From: Desulfoprunum benzoelyticum
GTDB taxonomy: Bacteria; Desulfobacterota; Desulfobulbia; Desulfobulbales; Desulfocapsaceae
NCBI RefSeq assembly: GCF_014201505.1
Contig: NZ_JACHEO010000005.1
Coordinates: forward strand, 1 to 64,000
Length of the DNA stretch: 64,000 nt
Direction: 5' to 3'
Part shown: positions 6,433 to 63,678 of the stretch, piece after piece
Position numbering within the stretch: position 1 is the stretch's first letter
Layout: each line of letters opens with the position of its first letter
Made by a program: the position numbers and the translations under genes
The notes under the pieces: model-generated
Seen by the model: the letters and a program-made list of their open reading frames with translations, nothing else
Told to the model about the DNA's origin: nothing
Database searches by the model: none

Positions 6433-7902
6433 TCAGCCCCCGTTCACCGGCAGCGACACGGTGAAGGCGCTGCCCTGGCCAAGCTTGCTCTCGACCCGGA
6501 TGCTGCCGCGATGGGCGGTGACGATGCTCTTGACGATCGCCAGCCCCAGGCCGGTGCCGTGGATCGTCCGGGTGTTGGCGTCCTTGACCCGGTAGAAGCT
6601 GGCGAAGATCTCCTCGAGGTCCTCCTCGGGGATGCCGTAGCCGCTATCGCGGACCGTCACCGCCAGGCAACCGCCGTCGACCCCGGCCGCCACGGTCACC
6701 CGGCCGCCCGCCGGCGAGTACTTGATGGCGTTGGTGATCAGGTTGGTGAAGACCTCGTCGAGGCCCTGGGGGTTGCCCTGGATCAGCGGCAGCGTCGGCA
6801 GCGGCTCGAGGGCCAGCTCGAGCCCGGCCGCCGTCGCCGCCGGGAGATGGAAGGCGACCTGCTCCTCCAGCAGCGTGCGGAGGTCGAGCTCCTCTTTGGC
6901 GTTGGCGATCAGCCCGGCCTCGATCCGGGCGAGGTCGAGCAGTTCCGACACCATGTTGGTGAGGTTGTGGATCTTGCCCGAGGCCCGCTCGAGGATCTCG
7001 CGCTGCTTGGCGGTGACCTCGCCGGCGAGGCCGTCGAGGATGACCTGGATCTGCATCAGCAGCGAGTTCATCGGCCCGCGGATCTCGTGCGAGACCATCG
7101 ACACGAAGTCCGACTTCATCCGCTCCATCTTCTTGCCGGCGGTGATGTCGTGGAGGACGACGATGGTACCGAGGTTGGCGCCGGTGCGGCCGCGGAACGG
7201 GGCGCAGCGGACGTCGAGGATCCGCTCGGGGCGGCCGTCGGCGGCGGGCACGGTGTGTTCCCGGACGATTTCGGTGAAGGTGTCGGCCGGCATCGCCAGC
7301 GCCTCGTCGATCATCTGCTGCAGCACCACCCCGGCGGCGACCTCCTCGACCCGGCGGCCGACGACGTCGCTCTCGGCCCAGCCGGTCATCTGCAGGAAGG
7401 CGGGATTGGCGAGGACGATGCGCTGTTCGCCGTCGGTCGTCATGACCCCGTCCATCAGGCGGTTGACGACGACCCGCAGCCGCGACTTGCTGTCGGCGAT
7501 GTCCTGCAGGGCCCGGGTATAGCGGAGCGACTTGGCGACGATGCCCCGCAGCTGGTCGGGGGTGAACGGTTTGGGGATGAAGTCGAAGGCCCCCTTCTTC
7601 ATCGCCTCGATCGAATGCTCGACCGTCGCGTAGCCGGTGATGACGATGACGACCGTGTCCGGGTGGTGTTCCCGGACCGCGGCGAGGACATCGAAGCCCG
7701 ACAGCACCGGCATCATCAGGTCGACGAGGATGATGTCGAAATGGCGGTCGGCGATCAGCGCCAGCCCCTGCTCGCCGTCGGCGGCGAGAACGACGTCGAA
7801 CCCCATCTCCTCGAGGACCATCCGGCACGCCTCGCGGATCCGCGATTCGTCGTCGACCACCAGGATCCGTCCCTTGTCTTTCGTCCCTGCTCCGATATCC
7901 AT
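6433..7902 (-). CDS. Hybrid receiver-PAS-histidine kinase
   Basis: 489 residues, no membrane segment. Domain order: an N-terminal receiver (VVDDESRIREAC, phospho-Asp in IILVDLMMPV, conserved Lys in IPKPF), a PAS domain (about residues 140-265), HisKA with the phospho-accepting His in SMVSHEIRGP, then HATPase with NLITNAIKY, DSGYGIPE and GTGLGLAIV. An N-terminal receiver suggests that another kinase feeds it; the kinase gene one base upstream is the obvious candidate. ATG 7902 is chosen because GGAG lies 6 bases before it; TTG 7914 and ATG 7908 are alternatives. It is the last gene of the long minus-strand block that begins with the Hdr/Met genes. Confidence 0.85.
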   Translation of the reverse strand: MDIGAGTKDKGRILVVDDESRIREACRMVLEEMGFDVVLAADGEQGLALIADRHFDIILVDLMMPVLSGFDVLAAVREHHPDTVVIVITGYATVEHSIEAMKKGAFDFIPKPFTPDQLRGIVAKSLRYTRALQDIADSKSRLRVVVNRLMDGVMTTDGEQRIVLANPAFLQMTGWAESDVVGRRVEEVAAGVVLQQMIDEALAMPADTFTEIVREHTVPAADGRPERILDVRCAPFRGRTGANLGTIVVLHDITAGKKMERMKSDFVSMVSHEIRGPMNSLLMQIQVILDGLAGEVTAKQREILERASGKIHNLTNMVSELLDLARIEAGLIANAKEELDLRTLLEEQVAFHLPAATAAGLELALEPLPTLPLIQGNPQGLDEVFTNLITNAIKYSPAGGRVTVAAGVDGGCLAVTVRDSGYGIPEEDLEEIFASFYRVKDANTRTIHGTGLGLAIVKSIVTAHRGSIRVESKLGQGSAFTVSLPVNGG

Positions 7903-53917: not shown

Positions 53918-54727
53918 TCATTCCCCGGTGGTCAAAAACTCCAGGACCTCATCCCACCACCCGGCACCCGGATGGTTGGGCCAATCGTTGTGACCGGCCT
54001 CGGCAAAGGTCCACAGCCGCTTGGGCTGGGCAAGCGAGCGGTACAGCGCCTTCGTCAATCGGTTCGGGATGATCTCATCCCGCCCGGCCATGACCACCGC
54101 CACCGGCCCGGTATAACTCGCCAGGTTGGCCGCATTGTCGTAGCGGTCGTGCAGCAGCAGCCTGACCGGCAGCCAGGGGTAGTGGACCCTGGCCTCGTTG
54201 GCCAGCGAGTCCCACGGGGTGATCAGGACCACGCCCTGCGGGCGGAGATCGGCATCGGCGGCCAGGGCGGAGGCGACGCCACATCCCAGCGACTCGCCCC
54301 AGACGTACAACGGCCCGCCGAATTCCTGTCGCGCCCGCTGCGCCGCCCGGCGGGCATCGGCGACGAAACTCCCCTCGCTCAACTCGCCCGGCCGGCCGCC
54401 ATATCCCGGATACTCGAGCACCACCACCCGGTAGCCCCGTCGCTCCAGGGCGGCGATATAGTACCCGCGGTCGACCGCCGCCCCGGCGTTGCCGTGGCAG
54501 ACGACGATCGTGCCCTTGAAGGCGGCCGGTCCATCGCGGCTGATAATGCCGTAGTAGTCGACGTCATCGGTGGGCCACAGCAGCCGGTCGCCGGCCGCGG
54601 CAGAGCGCCGCACCTCGGCCAGCGAATACGATCCGGGGTAATAGAGCAGAGAGCGCTGGATATTGCCGCGACAGAGCACGACAACAATGAGTATGAGGAC
54701 GGCGACGACGACGGCAACCTTGATCAT
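53918..54727 (-). CDS. Membrane-anchored alpha/beta hydrolase
   Basis: 269 residues. An N-terminal hydrophobic helix (IKVAVVVAVLILIVVVLC) anchors the protein. Motifs: IVVCHGNAGAAVDRG (oxyanion loop), YVWGESLGCGVASAL (nucleophile Ser), MAGRDEIIP (acid) and EAGHNDW (His). This resembles the YfhR/Bem46-like family. Substrate unknown. ATG 54727 overlaps the TGA of the upstream YjdF gene (ATGA), so the two are coupled. A longer frame to 54922 is rejected for that reason. Confidence 0.85.
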   Translation of the reverse strand: MIKVAVVVAVLILIVVVLCRGNIQRSLLYYPGSYSLAEVRRSAAAGDRLLWPTDDVDYYGIISRDGPAAFKGTIVVCHGNAGAAVDRGYYIAALERRGYRVVVLEYPGYGGRPGELSEGSFVADARRAAQRARQEFGGPLYVWGESLGCGVASALAADADLRPQGVVLITPWDSLANEARVHYPWLPVRLLLHDRYDNAANLASYTGPVAVVMAGRDEIIPNRLTKALYRSLAQPKRLWTFAEAGHNDWPNHPGAGWWDEVLEFLTTGE

Positions 54728-55374
54728 GACGGATGTCCCCCTTCCCGGGAAGATTCGACAGCGAGCCGCCGCAGTTGCCGATCGTGCAGCCATCCGAGGC
54801 AGACGAGCGCCGATATCGCCCCCAGCAGGGCGAAAAACATGTCGGACTGGGTATCCCAGGGGTCGCCCTGGGTGCCGAGGAACTCGTCCGCCCCCTGCCC
54901 GAGAACGAGCGCCGCCCCCCACTCGATCAGCTCATAGGTGGCGCTGATGGCGAGAGCGACGCATATCACCAGAAAGGCCAGCATCGACCGACCCCGGACA
55001 TACCCCCCGCGGAGCAGAATTTCCCGAGCCGCGAGGGCCGGGACGAATCCTTGCACAAAGTGGCCGATCTTGTCGTACGGATTGCGGTCCAGCCCCAGCA
55101 GCTCCTGGATCTGGAAGCCGAGCGGCACCCGGGCATAGGTGTAGGCGCCGCCGAGCGTCAGCACCATGGCGTGGACGAAGATGCAGAGGTACAGCAGCGA
55201 GGTGAGCGGGAAGCGCCGGTAGGTCAGCAACAGAACCGGCAAGGCGATGATGACCGGCACGACCTCCATGACCCACGTGGCCCGGTCATAGGGAGACCAC
55301 CCGGAGGCGACCAGCAGGCCGACGGTGGCGGCAACGGCCATCAACAGCAATGGAGAGCGAAGCGAAGGGGACAT
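54724..55374 (-). CDS. YjdF-like DUF2238 membrane protein
   Basis: 216 residues with about six TM segments. DUF2238 features: GGAYTYARVPLGFQIQELLG, RNPYDKIGHFVQGFVPALAA, SATYELIEWGAALVLG and DEFLGTQGDPWDTQSDMFFA. The conserved acidic and His residues lie at the membrane face. ATG 55374 gives MSPSLRSPLLLMAVAATVG; GTG 55389 is possible. The first 22 bases of the coding part are repeated at 57004-57025 on the other side of bioB. Function unknown. Confidence 0.85.
   Translation of the reverse strand: MSPSLRSPLLLMAVAATVGLLVASGWSPYDRATWVMEVVPVIIALPVLLLTYRRFPLTSLLYLCIFVHAMVLTLGGAYTYARVPLGFQIQELLGLDRNPYDKIGHFVQGFVPALAAREILLRGGYVRGRSMLAFLVICVALAISATYELIEWGAALVLGQGADEFLGTQGDPWDTQSDMFFALLGAISALVCLGWLHDRQLRRLAVESSREGGHPS
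55344..55365 (+). repeat. Direct repeat copy A (5-prime part of the yjdF gene)
   Basis: ACAGCAATGGAGAGCGAAGC followed by GA recurs exactly at 57004-57025. Similarity continues for about 26 more bases (GACATCGGTTC versus GGCATCGTATC, then CCTGCA), so both copies derive from the start of yjdF plus its leader. Confidence 0.85.
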
Positions 55375-55389
55375 CGGTTCAACCTGCAC

Positions 55390-55614
55390 TCAAAGTGTAT
55401 AATCCCGGATTATGTTCAACGATTTCAACTGGTAAATCGCTACCTTTTCCCCTAAATGTCGGGGTCGGGCATTGGATGCCTTGACATCGAAGACCCAAAA
55501 AAGTTTTGAAAGCAGTTCCCATATTCTTGTCTTCAGGTCGTTGGAGGCGCTGACCTCACGGGCGTTGTCGCCGTTCAGCTCGATCCTCTTGCACCTGCCG
55601 ATAGAGACCAGCAT
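55390..55614 (-). pseudogene. 3-prime fragment of a second sanA-like gene
   Basis: 74 codons reading IGRCKRIELNGDNAREV, LKTRIWELLSKLFWVFDVKA and ARPRHLGEKVAI. It aligns with the C-terminus of the full sanA-like gene at 57253 (IGRHKGIRLNGFNAEDV, LKTRVRELVSKLFCVLDVKI, TRPRHLGDKIVI) at roughly 60 percent identity. Everything upstream of this C-terminal part is missing, replaced by bioB. It lies between bioB and yjdF. Confidence 0.85.
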
Positions 55615-55635
55615 CGGTGCATTTCCTGTGCATCG

Positions 55636-56610
55636 CTACCTGAGCGCCTCTCCCTCTATGGAATAGCCCAGAGAGGTTATCATCCTGATGTCGTCCTCCA
55701 CCTGGCTGCCGCTTGTCGTCAGCATATCGCCCGTTATCACCGCATTGGCGCCGGAGGTGAAGCAGCGCCTGCCGTTGTCGGCCAGGAGTGCCCTCCCCCC
55801 TGCCAGTCGCAGGACACATGCGGGATGAATGAATCTGGTCATGGCGATGGTCCTCAACACCTCTTCCTCGCTGAGCTTTTCCTTGGTCGCGAAGGGCGTG
55901 CCGGGAATCGGGTTCAGGATATTGATCGGCATGGAGACCACATTCAACTCGCGAGCGGCAAAGGCGAGATCAATTCTGTCTTCGAAAGTTTCACCCAGTC
56001 CGATAATTCCTCCTGAGCAGATTTCAAAACCATACCGTTGAGCGGTCAATATCGTTTCAACCTTCTGCCGAAACGTATGTGTCGTGCATATTTTGGGGAA
56101 AAAGTTTTCCGATGCCTCCAGATTGTTATGTATTCGTGTAACCCCTGCGTCTTTCAGTTGAACTAATTGATCTTCCGTCGATAAACCGATCGATACGCAG
56201 ATCCCCAATGCTGTTGTTGCTTTTATTTGGCGGACGGCATGACAGATACGGTCGATTTCGTTATCCGACAATCTTTTCCCGGATGTAACGATGGAGAATC
56301 TTCTCACTCCCCTGGCATGGCAATAAATCGCCGTTTGAATCAGGACATCGTTGTCGACCAGCTCGTAATACGTGGTGTTCGTCGCATACCTGCGCGACTG
56401 GGCACAAAATTTACAGTCTTCGGAACACACGCCGCTTTTGGCGTTCACTATGGAACAGATATCGAATCTGTCCTTGTTGAAATGCCGCCTGATCCTATCG
56501 GCGCCACTGCAGATTACATCCAGAGGGGCGGTAATCAGTGGCAGTATTTCATTTTTGTTCAAGAGCTCGTTCGCTTGTATTCTCTCGACGAACTCGGATA
56601 CATTCACCAT
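55636..56610 (-). CDS. bioB: Biotin synthase
   Basis: 324 residues, normal length. Radical-SAM motif SGVCSEDCKFCAQSRRY (CX3CX2C). Further BioB blocks: RRFSIVTSGKRLSD, HNNLEASENFFPKICTTHTF, EICSGGIIGLGETFEDRIDL, INILNPIPGTPF and LRLAGGR, with the [2Fe-2S] ligands downstream. It inserts sulfur into dethiobiotin. ATG 56610 follows AGGTGAGTAT. GC content is visibly lower than that of the chromosome. The gene sits alone, without bioADF, between duplicated sanA/yjdF fragments, which suggests acquisition by transfer. Confidence 0.92.
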   Translation of the reverse strand: MVNVSEFVERIQANELLNKNEILPLITAPLDVICSGADRIRRHFNKDRFDICSIVNAKSGVCSEDCKFCAQSRRYATNTTYYELVDNDVLIQTAIYCHARGVRRFSIVTSGKRLSDNEIDRICHAVRQIKATTALGICVSIGLSTEDQLVQLKDAGVTRIHNNLEASENFFPKICTTHTFRQKVETILTAQRYGFEICSGGIIGLGETFEDRIDLAFAARELNVVSMPINILNPIPGTPFATKEKLSEEEVLRTIAMTRFIHPACVLRLAGGRALLADNGRRCFTSGANAVITGDMLTTSGSQVEDDIRMITSLGYSIEGEALR

Positions 56611-57252
56611 ATACTCACCTGACATTTTCTTAGACCGTCGCATCGACGGGATCGTGCTGTGGGTAGCATCTCCGGGACCAGTTCCATCGCCAGCTCCACC
56701 GCAACGATTGATCGTTCAAACAAACTATTTCACGCACCCACTTTCAACCTCAGGCCATCTTTATAGATGCAATATGCGATATATGCAACACGATCCCCAT
56801 GCAAGCGCCAGGCCATCGGCTCCGGCAACATCAATCCCGGCTTCGGGATTGAAGCACTGATCTCTGCCATGCCGGGGCCCATCCGACGGACCGACACCCG
56901 GCGCAATACCGGGCTCGGCACCCGGCGGGTAAAAGCCGGTCCTCCGAGTCATCCTCCGTTGCGATGAAACCGTCAAGGCTCGCGGCTGCGTAGTACTACA
57001 TCGACAGCAATGGAGAGCGAAGCGAGGGCATCGTATCTTCCTGCAATCAATTTAAATCAAGGTAGGATTCAGGTCTGCTCACCCTGCCGTTTCGCCTGCC
57101 GGGAGAATTCTCCACGGAAGAGGACAAGATTTTCAACCCTCGCCCAGGATGACAGGAAACAAGCTCCCCTTCAATATTGTCAACCAGAAACTAATAGTTT
57201 TACAATTGACTGAAATCGGCGTGAATTCCCGGCATGGAGGCAGCCTTCCGCC
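56611..57252. other. Spacer upstream of bioB with fragments of the yjdF start
   Basis: No gene supported. It contains AATCCCG-GCTT-CGGGATT (56831-56848), a stable hairpin with no T tract, and the second copy of the yjdF 5-prime repeat (57004-57025). The bioB promoter must be in its left part. The sequence near 57150-57215 is AT-rich. Confidence 0.45.
57004..57025 (+). repeat. Direct repeat copy B (yjdF 5-prime fragment)
   Basis: Identical for 22 bases to 55344-55365, with decaying similarity to about 57051. No yjdF coding sequence follows it. It marks the far side of the segment containing bioB and the truncated sanA copy. Confidence 0.85.
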
Positions 57253-57891
57253 TCAAATTACGATCTTGTCGCCTAAATGACGTGGACGGGTATTGAAAAT
57301 CTTGACATCGAGGACACAGAAAAGCTTTGAAACCAGTTCCCTAACTCGGGTCTTCAAGCCATTGTGGACGTTGACATCTTCGGCGTTGAAGCCATTCAGC
57401 CTGATACCTTTGTGTCTGCCGATAAAGACCGCTCGATTGTTGTGGAATTGTTGCGACACGACGATGCCGGCGGTCTGGCCGAAAATTTCCTTGAACCTGA
57501 TGATCGAATCCAGGGTTCGTCTGCCGGCGTAATCACAGACAATAACCTCTGCCGGCACCCCCAGGAGGATGAGATCGCTTTTCATGTCCCGGGGCTCGTT
57601 ATACCCCATTGTCCGGTTGTCGCCCGAGACAATGATTTTCTTGCATTTATTAGCCTGATACAGCTGCACTGCGGCCAGGATCCGATTTTTGTAATACTGG
57701 TTTTCCCGGCCATTTTTCAATTTTTTCGAGGTCCCCAGAACGATTGCTGAATAGACCGGCGCAATCTCATCGACAGTGTCGTAGGTGAATCGGCTGTAGG
57801 TGTTGACCATCATATTCGCTCCTATGACACTCGCCATCAGAATCAGAAAGATTAAACCAGAAACGCTTTTAAATACATAGACTTTCTTCAT
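57253..57891 (-). CDS. sanA: SanA-like DUF218 membrane protein
   Basis: 212 residues. One N-terminal TM helix (SGLIFLILMASVIGANMMVN), then the DUF218 domain: YSAIVLGTSKKLKNGRENQY, KKIIVSGDNRTMGYNEPRDM, GVPAEVIVCDYAGRRTLDSI, IVVSQQFHNNRAVFIGRHKG. SanA in E. coli is an envelope barrier protein linked to vancomycin exclusion at high temperature. ATG 57891 has a short-spaced AAAGGG. AT-rich for this window. The same C-terminus is duplicated as a fragment at 55390. Confidence 0.85.
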   Translation of the reverse strand: MKKVYVFKSVSGLIFLILMASVIGANMMVNTYSRFTYDTVDEIAPVYSAIVLGTSKKLKNGRENQYYKNRILAAVQLYQANKCKKIIVSGDNRTMGYNEPRDMKSDLILLGVPAEVIVCDYAGRRTLDSIIRFKEIFGQTAGIVVSQQFHNNRAVFIGRHKGIRLNGFNAEDVNVHNGLKTRVRELVSKLFCVLDVKIFNTRPRHLGDKIVI

Positions 57892-58021: not shown

Positions 58022-59350
58022 TCAATTGGTTTCTATTGCATACCAATCAATTTTTCTGGTGATGTACATTACACTGCTGAGAATAACAAAAAGCCCCACA
58101 CTTCCCATGATCAGCGCATAATCTTCGAGTTGCAGCACAATGAACAAATACAAGTACATAATTGCAAGTATTCCTGAAACAGTATATGCAAATCTTTTAT
58201 TTCTTAATATCCCATACGCGTATCCTGTAATCATGATGGTGATAGATAGAGCGGAAACTATATATGCATGATTGAATTTTATATATTCCGACAACGAAAT
58301 CAACAAAGTGTAAAACACTAATATTGCCAGACCGATCAAAATGTACTGGATAGGATGCAACTTACGCTTTTTGATTATTTCTGAAATGAAAAAAGCTGCG
58401 AACGTAAAGATGATAAACATACTTGCATATTTCAATATTCTCGTCGTCTTTTGATACACATCAGTCGTTAATATCAGCTTAAGGCCAAATGCTGACGGCT
58501 CAATTTTATATTGGTTATCAACCCAGTATTGGGGGTAATTTCTGTTCAGGTGCAACACCTTCCAACTCGCTGTAAAACCATGATTGTTTACCGCTCTTGA
58601 TGTCGGAAGAAACGCGCCGTTAAAACTCGGAGAAGGCCAAGGAGAACGAAGCGTTACATTGCTGGATTCACCGACCGGGATAAAATTCAGCTGTTCGCTG
58701 CCGTTTATGTTGATTTTAAATGAAAAAGTATTGCTCCCTTCAGGACGCAATGAACGTACCAAGGTACCGACTCCAGATGAGGCCAAATCTGTCGTTGTCA
58801 GTCCCGGGTTGCAGTTATAAACTGATCCGTTGAATTTTATCTCTATTCTTTCCTGAATTCCTCGAAGATCACTAATCCCAATCGAAAAAAAAGCCTTATC
58901 CCACAGTATGTTTTTGTCTTCTATATTTAATTGAGATAATTCTGGAATTTTTAACTTTCCATGAATATCGAGATTGACATTATACATTACTGCCTCGTAT
59001 AAGCTTCGGTATCGTATCTCTGGCCTTATCTTTCCTGAAATACTCAGCTCTTCGGGCAGAATATGCAGGTAATGCAAGTCGTATTTTGTTTTATCCTTAT
59101 AATCTTTATAGAAATTTTTATACGGAATGGTGATGAATGGACCTGTAATTGTCTGACTGTTTCCCCATTTACTGCTGATCTCATCGACAACAGAATTTTT
59201 TCGATGTTCTCTTTCATTTATCAGTGATCTTATCATCGAGGTCGGTATCAGCAGCACCAAGACCAGGATACCAATAGAAAATATTTTAAACGTTGCTGAA
59301 TTTCTGATATAATTTGATGTTTTTTTAATTGTTTCCTGTGTATTGATCAT
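58022..59350 (-). CDS. creD: CreD-like inner membrane protein
   Basis: 442 residues. One N-terminal TM helix (FKIFSIGILVLVLLIPTSMI) is followed by a large periplasmic domain (about 45-300) with MIRSLINEREHRKNSVVDEI and the CreD block GFTASWKVLHLNRNYPQYW. Five or six C-terminal TM helices follow (SMFIIFTFAAFFISE, IQYILIGLAILVFYTLLIS and others). CreD is linked to the CreBC regulon and colicin/beta-lactam tolerance; creBC are absent here. The DNA is strongly AT-rich, unlike the chromosome, so it was probably imported. ATG 59350 is the likely start; TTG 59386 is an alternative. Confidence 0.88.
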   Translation of the reverse strand: MINTQETIKKTSNYIRNSATFKIFSIGILVLVLLIPTSMIRSLINEREHRKNSVVDEISSKWGNSQTITGPFITIPYKNFYKDYKDKTKYDLHYLHILPEELSISGKIRPEIRYRSLYEAVMYNVNLDIHGKLKIPELSQLNIEDKNILWDKAFFSIGISDLRGIQERIEIKFNGSVYNCNPGLTTTDLASSGVGTLVRSLRPEGSNTFSFKININGSEQLNFIPVGESSNVTLRSPWPSPSFNGAFLPTSRAVNNHGFTASWKVLHLNRNYPQYWVDNQYKIEPSAFGLKLILTTDVYQKTTRILKYASMFIIFTFAAFFISEIIKKRKLHPIQYILIGLAILVFYTLLISLSEYIKFNHAYIVSALSITIMITGYAYGILRNKRFAYTVSGILAIMYLYLFIVLQLEDYALIMGSVGLFVILSSVMYITRKIDWYAIETN

Positions 59351-60927: not shown

Positions 60928-61049
60928 TCGGCGTTGATTACGGGATCTGATACCAGATCCTTCGTCACAGGGATTTCCTGCGCCAGGCAGCAGCCAACCG
61001 AATGGAAGCTGCCATCCTGACGCATGGAGTTGAAGATACAGCCGGGCGA

Positions 61050-61562
61050 TCAGTGATGATCGACGAATATCAATTTATCGGTGTCGAAATTCAAGGCGGC
61101 GGCCTTCGCGATCAGGATGTCCCTCAACTCCTGGTCCATCTGCGGACTTCGCGCCAGAAGCCACAAATACGATGTATTCGGTCCACATACCAGAGAATAC
61201 TGATAATTCTGATGATCAAGGTCGAAGATGACATAGGAACCGTAAAACGGACCGAAGAACGATACCTTCAGGTAACCTTGATCCGGTCGGCCGACAAAAT
61301 AGGCCTTGCCCTGAGCTTCTTTCCAGGCCTTTTTCTTCTCGGAGTACCCTCTGTTGACTACCCGTACACCCCCGTCATCCTGCAGACTGTACTCGGCGCT
61401 TACCTGGGTCAGTCCGCGTTCAAAGGAATGATCGAGTCTGGCGATCTCGTACCATGTGCCCAAATATTTGTTAACGTTGAAACCATCGACCGGTTGCACA
61501 TTCGCAGGGATTTTTACACATCCGGTCAGCAGCCCCAACACCACAAGCAATATCTTTTTCAT
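61050..61562 (-). CDS. blc: Blc-type lipocalin lipoprotein
   Basis: 170 residues. A lipoprotein signal MKKILLVVLGLLTGC (Cys15) is followed by the bacterial lipocalin pattern: NKYLGTWYEIARLDHSFERG, TQVSAEYSLQDDGGVRVVNR, FFGPFYGSYVIFDLDHQNYQ, VCGPNTSYLWLLARSPQMDQ. Outer-membrane lipocalins bind lysophospholipids or fatty acids under envelope stress. Monocistronic; a small gap separates it from the hydrolase gene. Confidence 0.95.
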   Translation of the reverse strand: MKKILLVVLGLLTGCVKIPANVQPVDGFNVNKYLGTWYEIARLDHSFERGLTQVSAEYSLQDDGGVRVVNRGYSEKKKAWKEAQGKAYFVGRPDQGYLKVSFFGPFYGSYVIFDLDHQNYQYSLVCGPNTSYLWLLARSPQMDQELRDILIAKAAALNFDTDKLIFVDHH

Positions 61563-61658
61563 CTCTGTTTTCTACCTGTATAACGATGCGATAAACCGGA
61601 ATGCCGGGTCTCGGGGCATCCAGCGTGGGTACGGCGTACCTTTCGCCTCCGGCGACGG

Positions 61659-62225
61659 CTACTCCGCCGGCATCCTATCCATTTCATACATTATTTCATT
61701 CGATGGGAGCACCTTGCCGTACACCCCGTTCAGAGCGGCAAGAAAGGCGGTATGGACGTCCTGGGCGGCAACGATACGGTCGCCAAGCTGCAGACTGCGC
61801 GTGGCACAGGCATCCGACGCGATAAGGCAATCGTAGCCATAGTCGCAAGCTGCCCGCACGGTGGCGTCGACACACATATGGGTCATCATGCCGGCGACGA
61901 TCAACCGCTGAATGTTTGCTGCCTGCAGTTGCTGCAGCAAGCCGGTTTCCCGAAAGCTGTTGGGGTACTGTTTCTGAACGATCTTTTCATCGCCAACCGG
62001 CTTGACGCTCCGATGAATTTCAGCTCCCGCAGTGTTGGGCAGAAAGAAGGTGGCGCCTGCTTGTCTGGCAAGATGTTGAATATGGAATATCGGCAACTGC
62101 CTGGTCCGGAAATATTCCAAAAGTTTCGCCGCGTTGATGGCAGCCTGGTCACTGCCTTCCAGCTCCATTCTGCCGTCTTGAAAATAGTCGTTTTGAATGT
62201 CAATGAGAATGAGACCGAGAGACAT
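61659..62225 (-). CDS. Isochorismatase-family cysteine hydrolase
   Basis: 188 residues. Catalytic triad contexts: Asp in LGLILIDIQNDYF, Lys in IVQKQYPNSFRET and Cys in VAGMMTHMCVDATVRAACDY, with the non-proline cis peptide region before the Cys. Such enzymes hydrolyse nicotinamide, N-carbamoyl or related amides; the exact substrate is unknown. ATG 62225 follows AAGGAGCACAT; a longer frame to 62252 is unlikely. Confidence 0.9.
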   Translation of the reverse strand: MSLGLILIDIQNDYFQDGRMELEGSDQAAINAAKLLEYFRTRQLPIFHIQHLARQAGATFFLPNTAGAEIHRSVKPVGDEKIVQKQYPNSFRETGLLQQLQAANIQRLIVAGMMTHMCVDATVRAACDYGYDCLIASDACATRSLQLGDRIVAAQDVHTAFLAALNGVYGKVLPSNEIMYEMDRMPAE

Positions 62226-62340
62226 ATGTGCTCCTTGGTTTATGGTGGACACCGTTGTGACACCCCGAGTACTGCTCTGGACTATACCCTATCGTTGTTC
62301 CTTTCGCGTCGCCGGAACAGGGGCGCTGTTAATTGCCGCG

Positions 62341-63678
62341 CTACATCAGCCACTCATCGATGATCTCATCGATGGCGGCAGGCAGCAACCCTGCGGCAAG
62401 GCCGAGACTGAGAGAAGTGAAACGTTCGCGGATCGAGGCGGCATTGCACACGGCGTGGAAAAAATCTTCCCGTGTCGATCCGATATCCTCCAGCCGATGC
62501 GCACCACCGGCCGACGCGAGACAGCGCTTGAACACCGCCGGGGAGCGCAGGCATGGCCTCAGGTTCGCCCTCAGTTCATCCCATGCCCCAGGCCGGCGAA
62601 GGATCGCGACGGCCGCGGCCATACGGGTTGCGGCGAGATCATGCTGCTCGCGTACACGGGCGGCAAGAGGGCCCCAGTAGGCGGCATCGAAGTGGAGGGC
62701 CGCCCTGGTGAAATCGGGTGTCTCCAGACGGAGAAGCCTGTCGTACAGGGCAGCGGCGAAGATCGTCGCGACCCCGACCTGGCGCCCGTGCAGATCATGG
62801 CCACGTCCCGTGATATAGGCCTGCATGTCCAGCGTATGACTGATCAGGTGCTCGCCGCCTGAGGCCGGGAGCGAGGAGCCCTGCAGGGTCATGGCGCAGC
62901 CGGAAAGCACGAGCGCTTCCAGGAGCCCCCGAAGAGTTGCGGGATCCTTTGCCTTGATGCCCGCGGGATGATCGAGATAGGTCGGTTCCACCTCAGTGAT
63001 GATGGCCGCCACCTCTTCGGAGTAGGGCTCGGCAAAGAGCTGGTGGTTCATGACCCAGTCGGAGGTGCTGACAGGTTTGGCCAAGACATCGCCCAATCCG
63101 GCCGTGGTGAGCCGGCTGGGCGCCGAGGCGATGACGGCCGGGTCGGCAGCGATGACAATCGGGGCCTTGGCCCTGAACAGACTCTTGATGCCGTTGATCG
63201 CGGGGGCGACGTTGGCGGCCGCAAACCCGTTCATCGAGGCCGCCGTAGCGAACACGGCATAGGGCTTGCGGGCCTCGGCGGCCAGCCATTTGACGAGATC
63301 GTTGATCACCCCGCTGCCGACGGCCAGGTAGGCATCGACGGTCGGCAGCGCGGAACGGAGCCGGCTCATGGTGACATCGTCGCATACCGGCGGCGATCCG
63401 TCAGGACCGTCGGGGATCAGATATTCCAGTACCGTCCAGCCCGAGGCTTGCAGGGCGTCGAGACAGGTCTCCCCGGCAACGGCCCGTGTGCGTTGGTCGA
63501 AGAACACCAGGACCGACGACATATGGGAGTGAGTCCTGAAATCCTCGGCGAGATGGGACGCGGCATCATGCCCGTACAGGAACGCGCGTGGAAGCTCCGA
63601 AATTCTCGCCACGGCAGGCCCGCGCAGGCGCATTTTCATATACTCGGGGAGATTCATGGGGCAGAGTGGTCTGTTCAC
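62341..63678 (-). CDS. Glycerol-1-phosphate dehydrogenase-like (EgsA/AraM family) protein
   Basis: 445 residues of the iron-containing alcohol dehydrogenase/dehydroquinate synthase-like superfamily. NAD-binding AYLAVGSGVINDLVKWL, then FATAASMNGFAAANVAP and KAPIVIAADPAVIASAPSRL. Metal-site residues lie in AGLGDVLAKPVS (Asp), GGEHLISHTLDM (His) and GHDLHGRQVGVAT. These match sn-glycerol-1-phosphate dehydrogenases (AraM in Bacillus, EgsA in archaea), which reduce DHAP to sn-glycerol-1-phosphate. A C-terminal extension of about 80 residues is present. Start GTG 63678 has AAGGA six bases upstream; ATG 63657 lacks a site. Confidence 0.82.
   Translation of the reverse strand: MNRPLCPMNLPEYMKMRLRGPAVARISELPRAFLYGHDAASHLAEDFRTHSHMSSVLVFFDQRTRAVAGETCLDALQASGWTVLEYLIPDGPDGSPPVCDDVTMSRLRSALPTVDAYLAVGSGVINDLVKWLAAEARKPYAVFATAASMNGFAAANVAPAINGIKSLFRAKAPIVIAADPAVIASAPSRLTTAGLGDVLAKPVSTSDWVMNHQLFAEPYSEEVAAIITEVEPTYLDHPAGIKAKDPATLRGLLEALVLSGCAMTLQGSSLPASGGEHLISHTLDMQAYITGRGHDLHGRQVGVATIFAAALYDRLLRLETPDFTRAALHFDAAYWGPLAARVREQHDLAATRMAAAVAILRRPGAWDELRANLRPCLRSPAVFKRCLASAGGAHRLEDIGSTREDFFHAVCNAASIRERFTSLSLGLAAGLLPAAIDEIIDEWLM

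Follow-up and report, generated by a model that had tools for sequence, protein, structure and literature searches.

Homology-facilitated illegitimate recombination (HFIR) usually yields an insertion coupled with a deletion, with 3-10 bp of microhomology at the joint (PMC3240628). In a comparable model, proposed for the type VI secretion effector loci of Vibrio cholerae, an inserted gene pushes the 3' end of the old gene downstream, where it is left as a scrap (PMC5361080). A further comparison is metabolic and concerns the 'A1' biotin auxotrophs (169 genomes), which retain BioB alone and are supposed to salvage dethiobiotin (PMC6593275).

The locus described here lies in a 64,000 nt stretch of the Desulfoprunum benzoelyticum genome (positions 1 to 64,000 of contig NZ_JACHEO010000005.1; hereafter the window) and has features of each. 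As in HFIR and insertion-duplication (PMC3240628), an apparently foreign segment is anchored by homology at one side and joined without homology at the other: the anchor is the junction between the 3' end of a sanA-like gene and the 5' end of a yjdF-like gene, which flanks bioB on both sides. In the closest congener (G003) the flanking genes are conserved, without sanA, yjdF or the bioB of the island, and a contig gap falls at the site. Unlike HFIR, however, the junction is duplicated, its copies differ by 27%, and microhomology can no longer be clearly read. The likeness to the V. cholerae loci (PMC5361080) is that the 3' end of a gene has been left as a scrap downstream of an inserted gene; the differences are that effector and immunity genes are absent, that the genes are housekeeping-like, and that a full copy of the scrapped gene stands upstream. 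As in the 'A1' auxotrophs (PMC6593275), BioB is present without BioA, BioD or BioF and together with the biotin transporter BioY (in a genome that is 93% complete), but the remaining bioB is no remnant of the native operon and appears to come from outside the lineage.

Organization of the locus

The module spans positions 54724-57891 of the window and is read on the minus strand, as are its parts and the two flanking genes. Its order – full sanA, a fragment of the start of yjdF, bioB, a 3' scrap of sanA, full yjdF – had been proposed from the letters and open reading frames alone (the sequence-only reading) and is borne out by alignments and profile matches, with 30-52 nt for the yjdF fragment. 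The upstream sanA-like gene (DUF218; 57253-57891, 212 amino acids) matches Pfam PF02698 with 70 bits. The full yjdF-like gene (DUF2238; 54724-55374, 65% GC) matches PF09997 with 194 bits and has backbone-like GC and GC3; at its stop codon it overlaps with the beginning of a gene for an alpha/beta hydrolase (53918-54727). This hydrolase gene (79% amino acid identity in the closest congener) and creD on the other side (58022-59350; 80%) are the conserved flanks. The names 'sanA' and 'yjdF' are family-level: while the Pfam matches to DUF218 and DUF2238 are clear, both proteins miss the NCBIfam equivalog cut-offs (155.7 bits against 363 for the SanA model, and 306.1 against 353 for the yjdF-like protein).

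That the sanA-yjdF junction is duplicated, with bioB inside the duplication, was claimed in the sequence-only reading, and it is confirmed. The sanA ends (55434-55609 and 57255-57430) are identical at 129 of 176 positions (73% nucleotide identity) and align without gaps; the yjdF starts (55339-55368 and 56999-57028) are identical at 28 of 30 positions and contain the exact core of 22 nt that had been noted before. With small gaps allowed the latter match extends to 55339-55393 against 56999-57050 (82%; E 8e-8 for the whole genome). On this value, together with the failure of any shuffle to reproduce the yjdF-start match, a chance origin of the repeat was rejected. The 21-mer TCGCTTCGCTCTCCATTGCTG, taken from the yjdF start, has exactly two occurrences in the window compared to 0.00 expected from shuffles, and a query with the junction against the whole genome returned the two junction copies as the only matches. 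Spacing between sanA and yjdF is unequal: the downstream copy has about 60 nt, whereas the upstream one has about 200 nt (57051-57252, seen on aligning both junctions). A 27 nt inverted match, in which the end of the upstream sanA (57283-57309) pairs at 78% with the spacer that follows it (57120-57146), was judged to be at chance level for a region of this size.

The yjdF scrap (56999-57050), recognized by its match to the true yjdF start, consists of upstream bases, the start codon and about 10 codons; it reads M-PSLRSPLLSM and then stops. Joined directly to it, at about position 56998, is a third scrap that the sequence-only reading had not seen: a RibD_C/DHFR-like pseudogene (56861-56998). 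A gene of the closest congener that itself matches the RibD_C profile aligns by its start (C41:6521-6591) to 56927-56997 of the window at 86%, and by its end (6962-7034) to 56862-56934 at 85%: the pseudogene keeps the first 71 nt and the last 73 nt of that gene, and about 370 nt are missing. At the joint between the yjdF scrap and the pseudogene no clear microhomology can be read; the source sequences are diverged. The RibD_C scrap shows that the insert also contains DNA from the genus's own lineage, so the insert cannot be a single piece of foreign DNA. Shortly after the stop codon of bioB (55636-56643) comes the sanA 3' scrap (55434-55611), which comprises 59 codons, has lost its stop codon and is 61% identical to full sanA at the amino acid level. 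The duplicated scraps have no evident function.

Origin of bioB and loss of the native biotin operon

The island gene encodes a protein of 335 amino acids (an alternative start is possible at 56625) and is, by genome search, the sole bioB in the genome. The frame is intact: its product scores 381 bits against TIGR00433 (equivalog cut-off 225), has the domains Radical_SAM (PF04055) and BATS (PF06968), and carries the radical-SAM CxxxCxxC motif as CSEDCKFC at residue 67 (in the 329 amino acid reading). The closest match among solved structures is biotin synthase 8vcw.

The protein shares just 44-48% identity with BioB of the congeners (72% among themselves), and in the BioB tree it lies outside a clade made up of 27 sequences from the family and order. 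An AU test marginally rejects its placement with the congeners (P = 0.041) and gives P = 0.08 for placement with the family as a whole; the marginal outcome is attributable to the long branch of the island protein. The base composition of bioB is distinctive as well (51% GC and GC3 of 0.61, compared to 65% GC for the gene of the closest congener and a GC3 of about 0.8 for most backbone genes). No close donor of bioB was found in a sample of the phylum, and matches to plasmid and phage BioB proteins were all below 60%.

Stronger evidence than the tree comes from synteny. The closest congener carries the operon fabD-bioB-bioA-bioF-bioC-bioD (identified with NCBIfam models, although the scores of BioF and BioC fall somewhat short of the equivalog cut-offs), and orthologs of bioB, bioA and bioF are present in another genome (G001). 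In the genome studied here, homology to the closest congener ends beside fabD and resumes after 163 nt (L097 11399-11562, in the interior of contig C1): about 5.9 kb has gone in a clean deletion. BioF, BioD and BioA of the congener, used as queries, recovered just paralogs of 31-35% identity and no BioD, that is, no ortholog of bioA, bioF or bioD; because the genome is a draft (51 contigs, 93% complete), this absence is strong rather than absolute. Judged from synteny and from the sequence of the gene, bioB is not the native gene of the lineage and was probably acquired horizontally.

A BioY transporter is encoded elsewhere in the genome (PF02632, 162 bits; contig C7). Given that bioA, bioF and bioD are missing while BioY is present, the BioB product most likely makes biotin from imported dethiobiotin, and the cell is probably confined to biotin import or dethiobiotin conversion.

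How the structure arose

The divergence between the two sanA ends bears on the history of the duplication. A tree of the 59 residues common to both pairs the scrap with the resident full sanA (95/91), with a branch length of 0.79 for the scrap and about 0 for the resident gene. Of 11 positions at which ten other SanA proteins show no variation, four are altered in the scrap; in a leave-one-out control, nine of these ten differ at none or one of the invariant positions, and one differs at three. Because the scrap is sister to the resident gene, because nearly all change lies on the scrap branch, and because invariant residues are altered, these data point to relaxed constraint and fit a decayed duplicate of the resident gene, which is the simplest reading at the limited resolution that 59 residues afford. 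Part of the divergence may nevertheless predate the loss of coding, since conservation is lowest at third codon positions and dN/dS is 0.27/0.64 (about 0.43). The yjdF scrap (28/30) is better preserved than predicted from the site rate of the sanA copies (binomial, 0.006): a later conversion tract is possible, as is plain luck. A search of the phylum sample returned no close donor of sanA.

We lean towards reading the locus as the scar of a horizontally acquired bioB, formed by insertion-duplication (through a single crossover or one-sided homology) and followed by decay. An ancestor of the species would have lost the native bio operon, as comparison with the closest congener shows, and the variable site between the hydrolase gene and creD would have gained sanA and yjdF, and bioB with adjoining DNA of mixed origin. 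Vertical inheritance of the same arrangement in all relatives, which the sequence-only reading had named as the outcome to count against it, was not seen: a search of four congeneric genomes recovered neither sanA nor yjdF from any of them, and we infer a gain rather than repeated loss at the site. On entry, the bioB-bearing DNA would have duplicated the sanA-3'/yjdF-5' junction by one of two routes: either a circular molecule carrying the junction plus the insert was integrated by a single crossover, or homology acted on one side and an illegitimate joint (bioB|sanA') was formed on the other. A junction doubled around an insert, with each copy cut inwards, is expected from integration of a junction-bearing molecule. 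Later decay would have removed redundant pieces, such that the upstream yjdF kept just its start and the downstream sanA just its 3' end. Several observations count against this reading: the closest congener has a contig gap where an empty site would be expected, the AU test is marginal, the phylum sample yielded no donor, the yjdF scrap is better preserved than the sanA scrap would predict, and the insert includes native-like RibD_C DNA.

The sequence-only reading had offered insertion by homologous recombination between related loci or, alternatively, an imported allele that brought a sanA end along with it. The first part stands as a plausible mechanism suggested by the anatomy, given a duplicated junction with a non-native bioB inside it. 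The second part is not supported, in view of the sister relationship of scrap and resident sanA and the altered invariant positions. Comparison with genomes in which sanA and yjdF are adjacent had also been proposed: neither such a junction nor an undisturbed sanA-yjdF pair was found among the loci retrieved.

The main rival supposes that sanA-yjdF was first duplicated in tandem, and that RibD_C-bioB then replaced the middle (most of the first yjdF copy and of the second sanA copy) by separate insertions and deletions. This would yield identical anatomy, it accords with the finding that scrap and resident sanA are sisters, and it suits a neighborhood that gathers insertions and deletions piecemeal. 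On the other hand it requires more events, and a simple tandem pair occurs in no genome among the loci retrieved. We regard it as unlikely while still deserving serious weight, and the data do not separate it from insertion-duplication.

In another alternative, bioB arrived beside the resident sanA as part of an entirely foreign block that also held yjdF and a diverged sanA end. This would account for the 73% identity of the sanA copies, and the dN/dS of about 0.43, with the lower third-position identity, suggests divergence in part while both were coding. It is nonetheless improbable: no sanA other than the resident one groups with the scrap, the changes in the scrap fall almost entirely on its own branch and at otherwise invariant positions, and the GC and GC3 of yjdF are those of the backbone. 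We give equally little credence, or slightly less, to bioB being a native gene that moved and diverged rapidly in the absence of horizontal transfer. Its best match is indeed the BioB of a congener (49%), and the AU test is marginal, but the identity of 44-48% against 72% between congeners, the position outside the family clade, the GC of 51% against 65% and the disappearance of the remaining operon all count against such a history. Finally, an assembly artefact or chance repeat, conceivable for a draft of 51 contigs and 93% completeness, is hardly credible given a 27% difference between copies (beyond assembler confusion), a yjdF-start match unequalled by shuffles (E 8e-8 genome-wide) and a location inside a 163 kb contig.

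Implications for biotin metabolism

A possible though somewhat doubtful account is that loss of the whole native operon was followed by selection for regaining just the last step from outside the family, the gene being captured at the junction-duplication scar. If true, the locus would be a natural record of a shift from biotin prototrophy to dethiobiotin salvage by way of a foreign gene. Irrespective of that account, the locus gives a nucleotide-level view of how a single-enzyme gene can be captured at a variable chromosomal site, with readable scraps of the neighboring genes left behind. A testable prediction follows: growth on dethiobiotin or biotin, and not on earlier precursors. A lone bioB that is foreign, in a genome from which the native operon has gone, is less usual than the lone-BioB class itself. 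The kind of event is already known, and the locus is a well-preserved but ordinary scar that reveals no new system.

The neighborhood of the locus

The proteins YjdF, BioB, SanA and CreD had no PHROG match that would mark them as phage or plasmid cargo, and a pattern search of IMG/VR returned no relatives of SanA. PADLOC gave no match to defence genes among the four proteins scanned, Rfam gave no match to structured RNA between 53.5 and 60.5 kb, and no tRNA insertion site was found within the window. An integron cassette array was considered and rejected, since a simple home-made scan of the window and of L086 from the closest congener detected no attC-like pair.

In that congener the flanks are found on two contigs, the hydrolase side on one and creD-DUF3786 on another, with the contig gap exactly at the site of the island. 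Both contig ends at the gap (L086 13406-13421; L087 1-16) carry the same 16 nt inverted repeat, GGGGTAGTCGGTTAGC, which suggests that the gap holds an insertion sequence. A truncated frame at the contig end resembles, as far as can be judged from its sequence, a GNAT acetyltransferase. The creD gene is AT-rich (37% GC here and 34% in the congener, against about 63% for the surrounding region): as this holds in both genomes the composition would predate their split, and creD is probably an older acquisition kept by both species.

The RibD_C-like gene of the congener has the DUF3786 gene on one side and egsA on the other, a place taken in the window by genes for a lipocalin and an isochorismatase. 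The neighborhood is therefore a mosaic that contains at least two variable spots. The second spot (window 60966-62343) holds the lipocalin and isochorismatase genes, at 50-54% GC; in the congener it holds a membrane-protein-like frame, two RibD_C-like frames and a GNAT gene.
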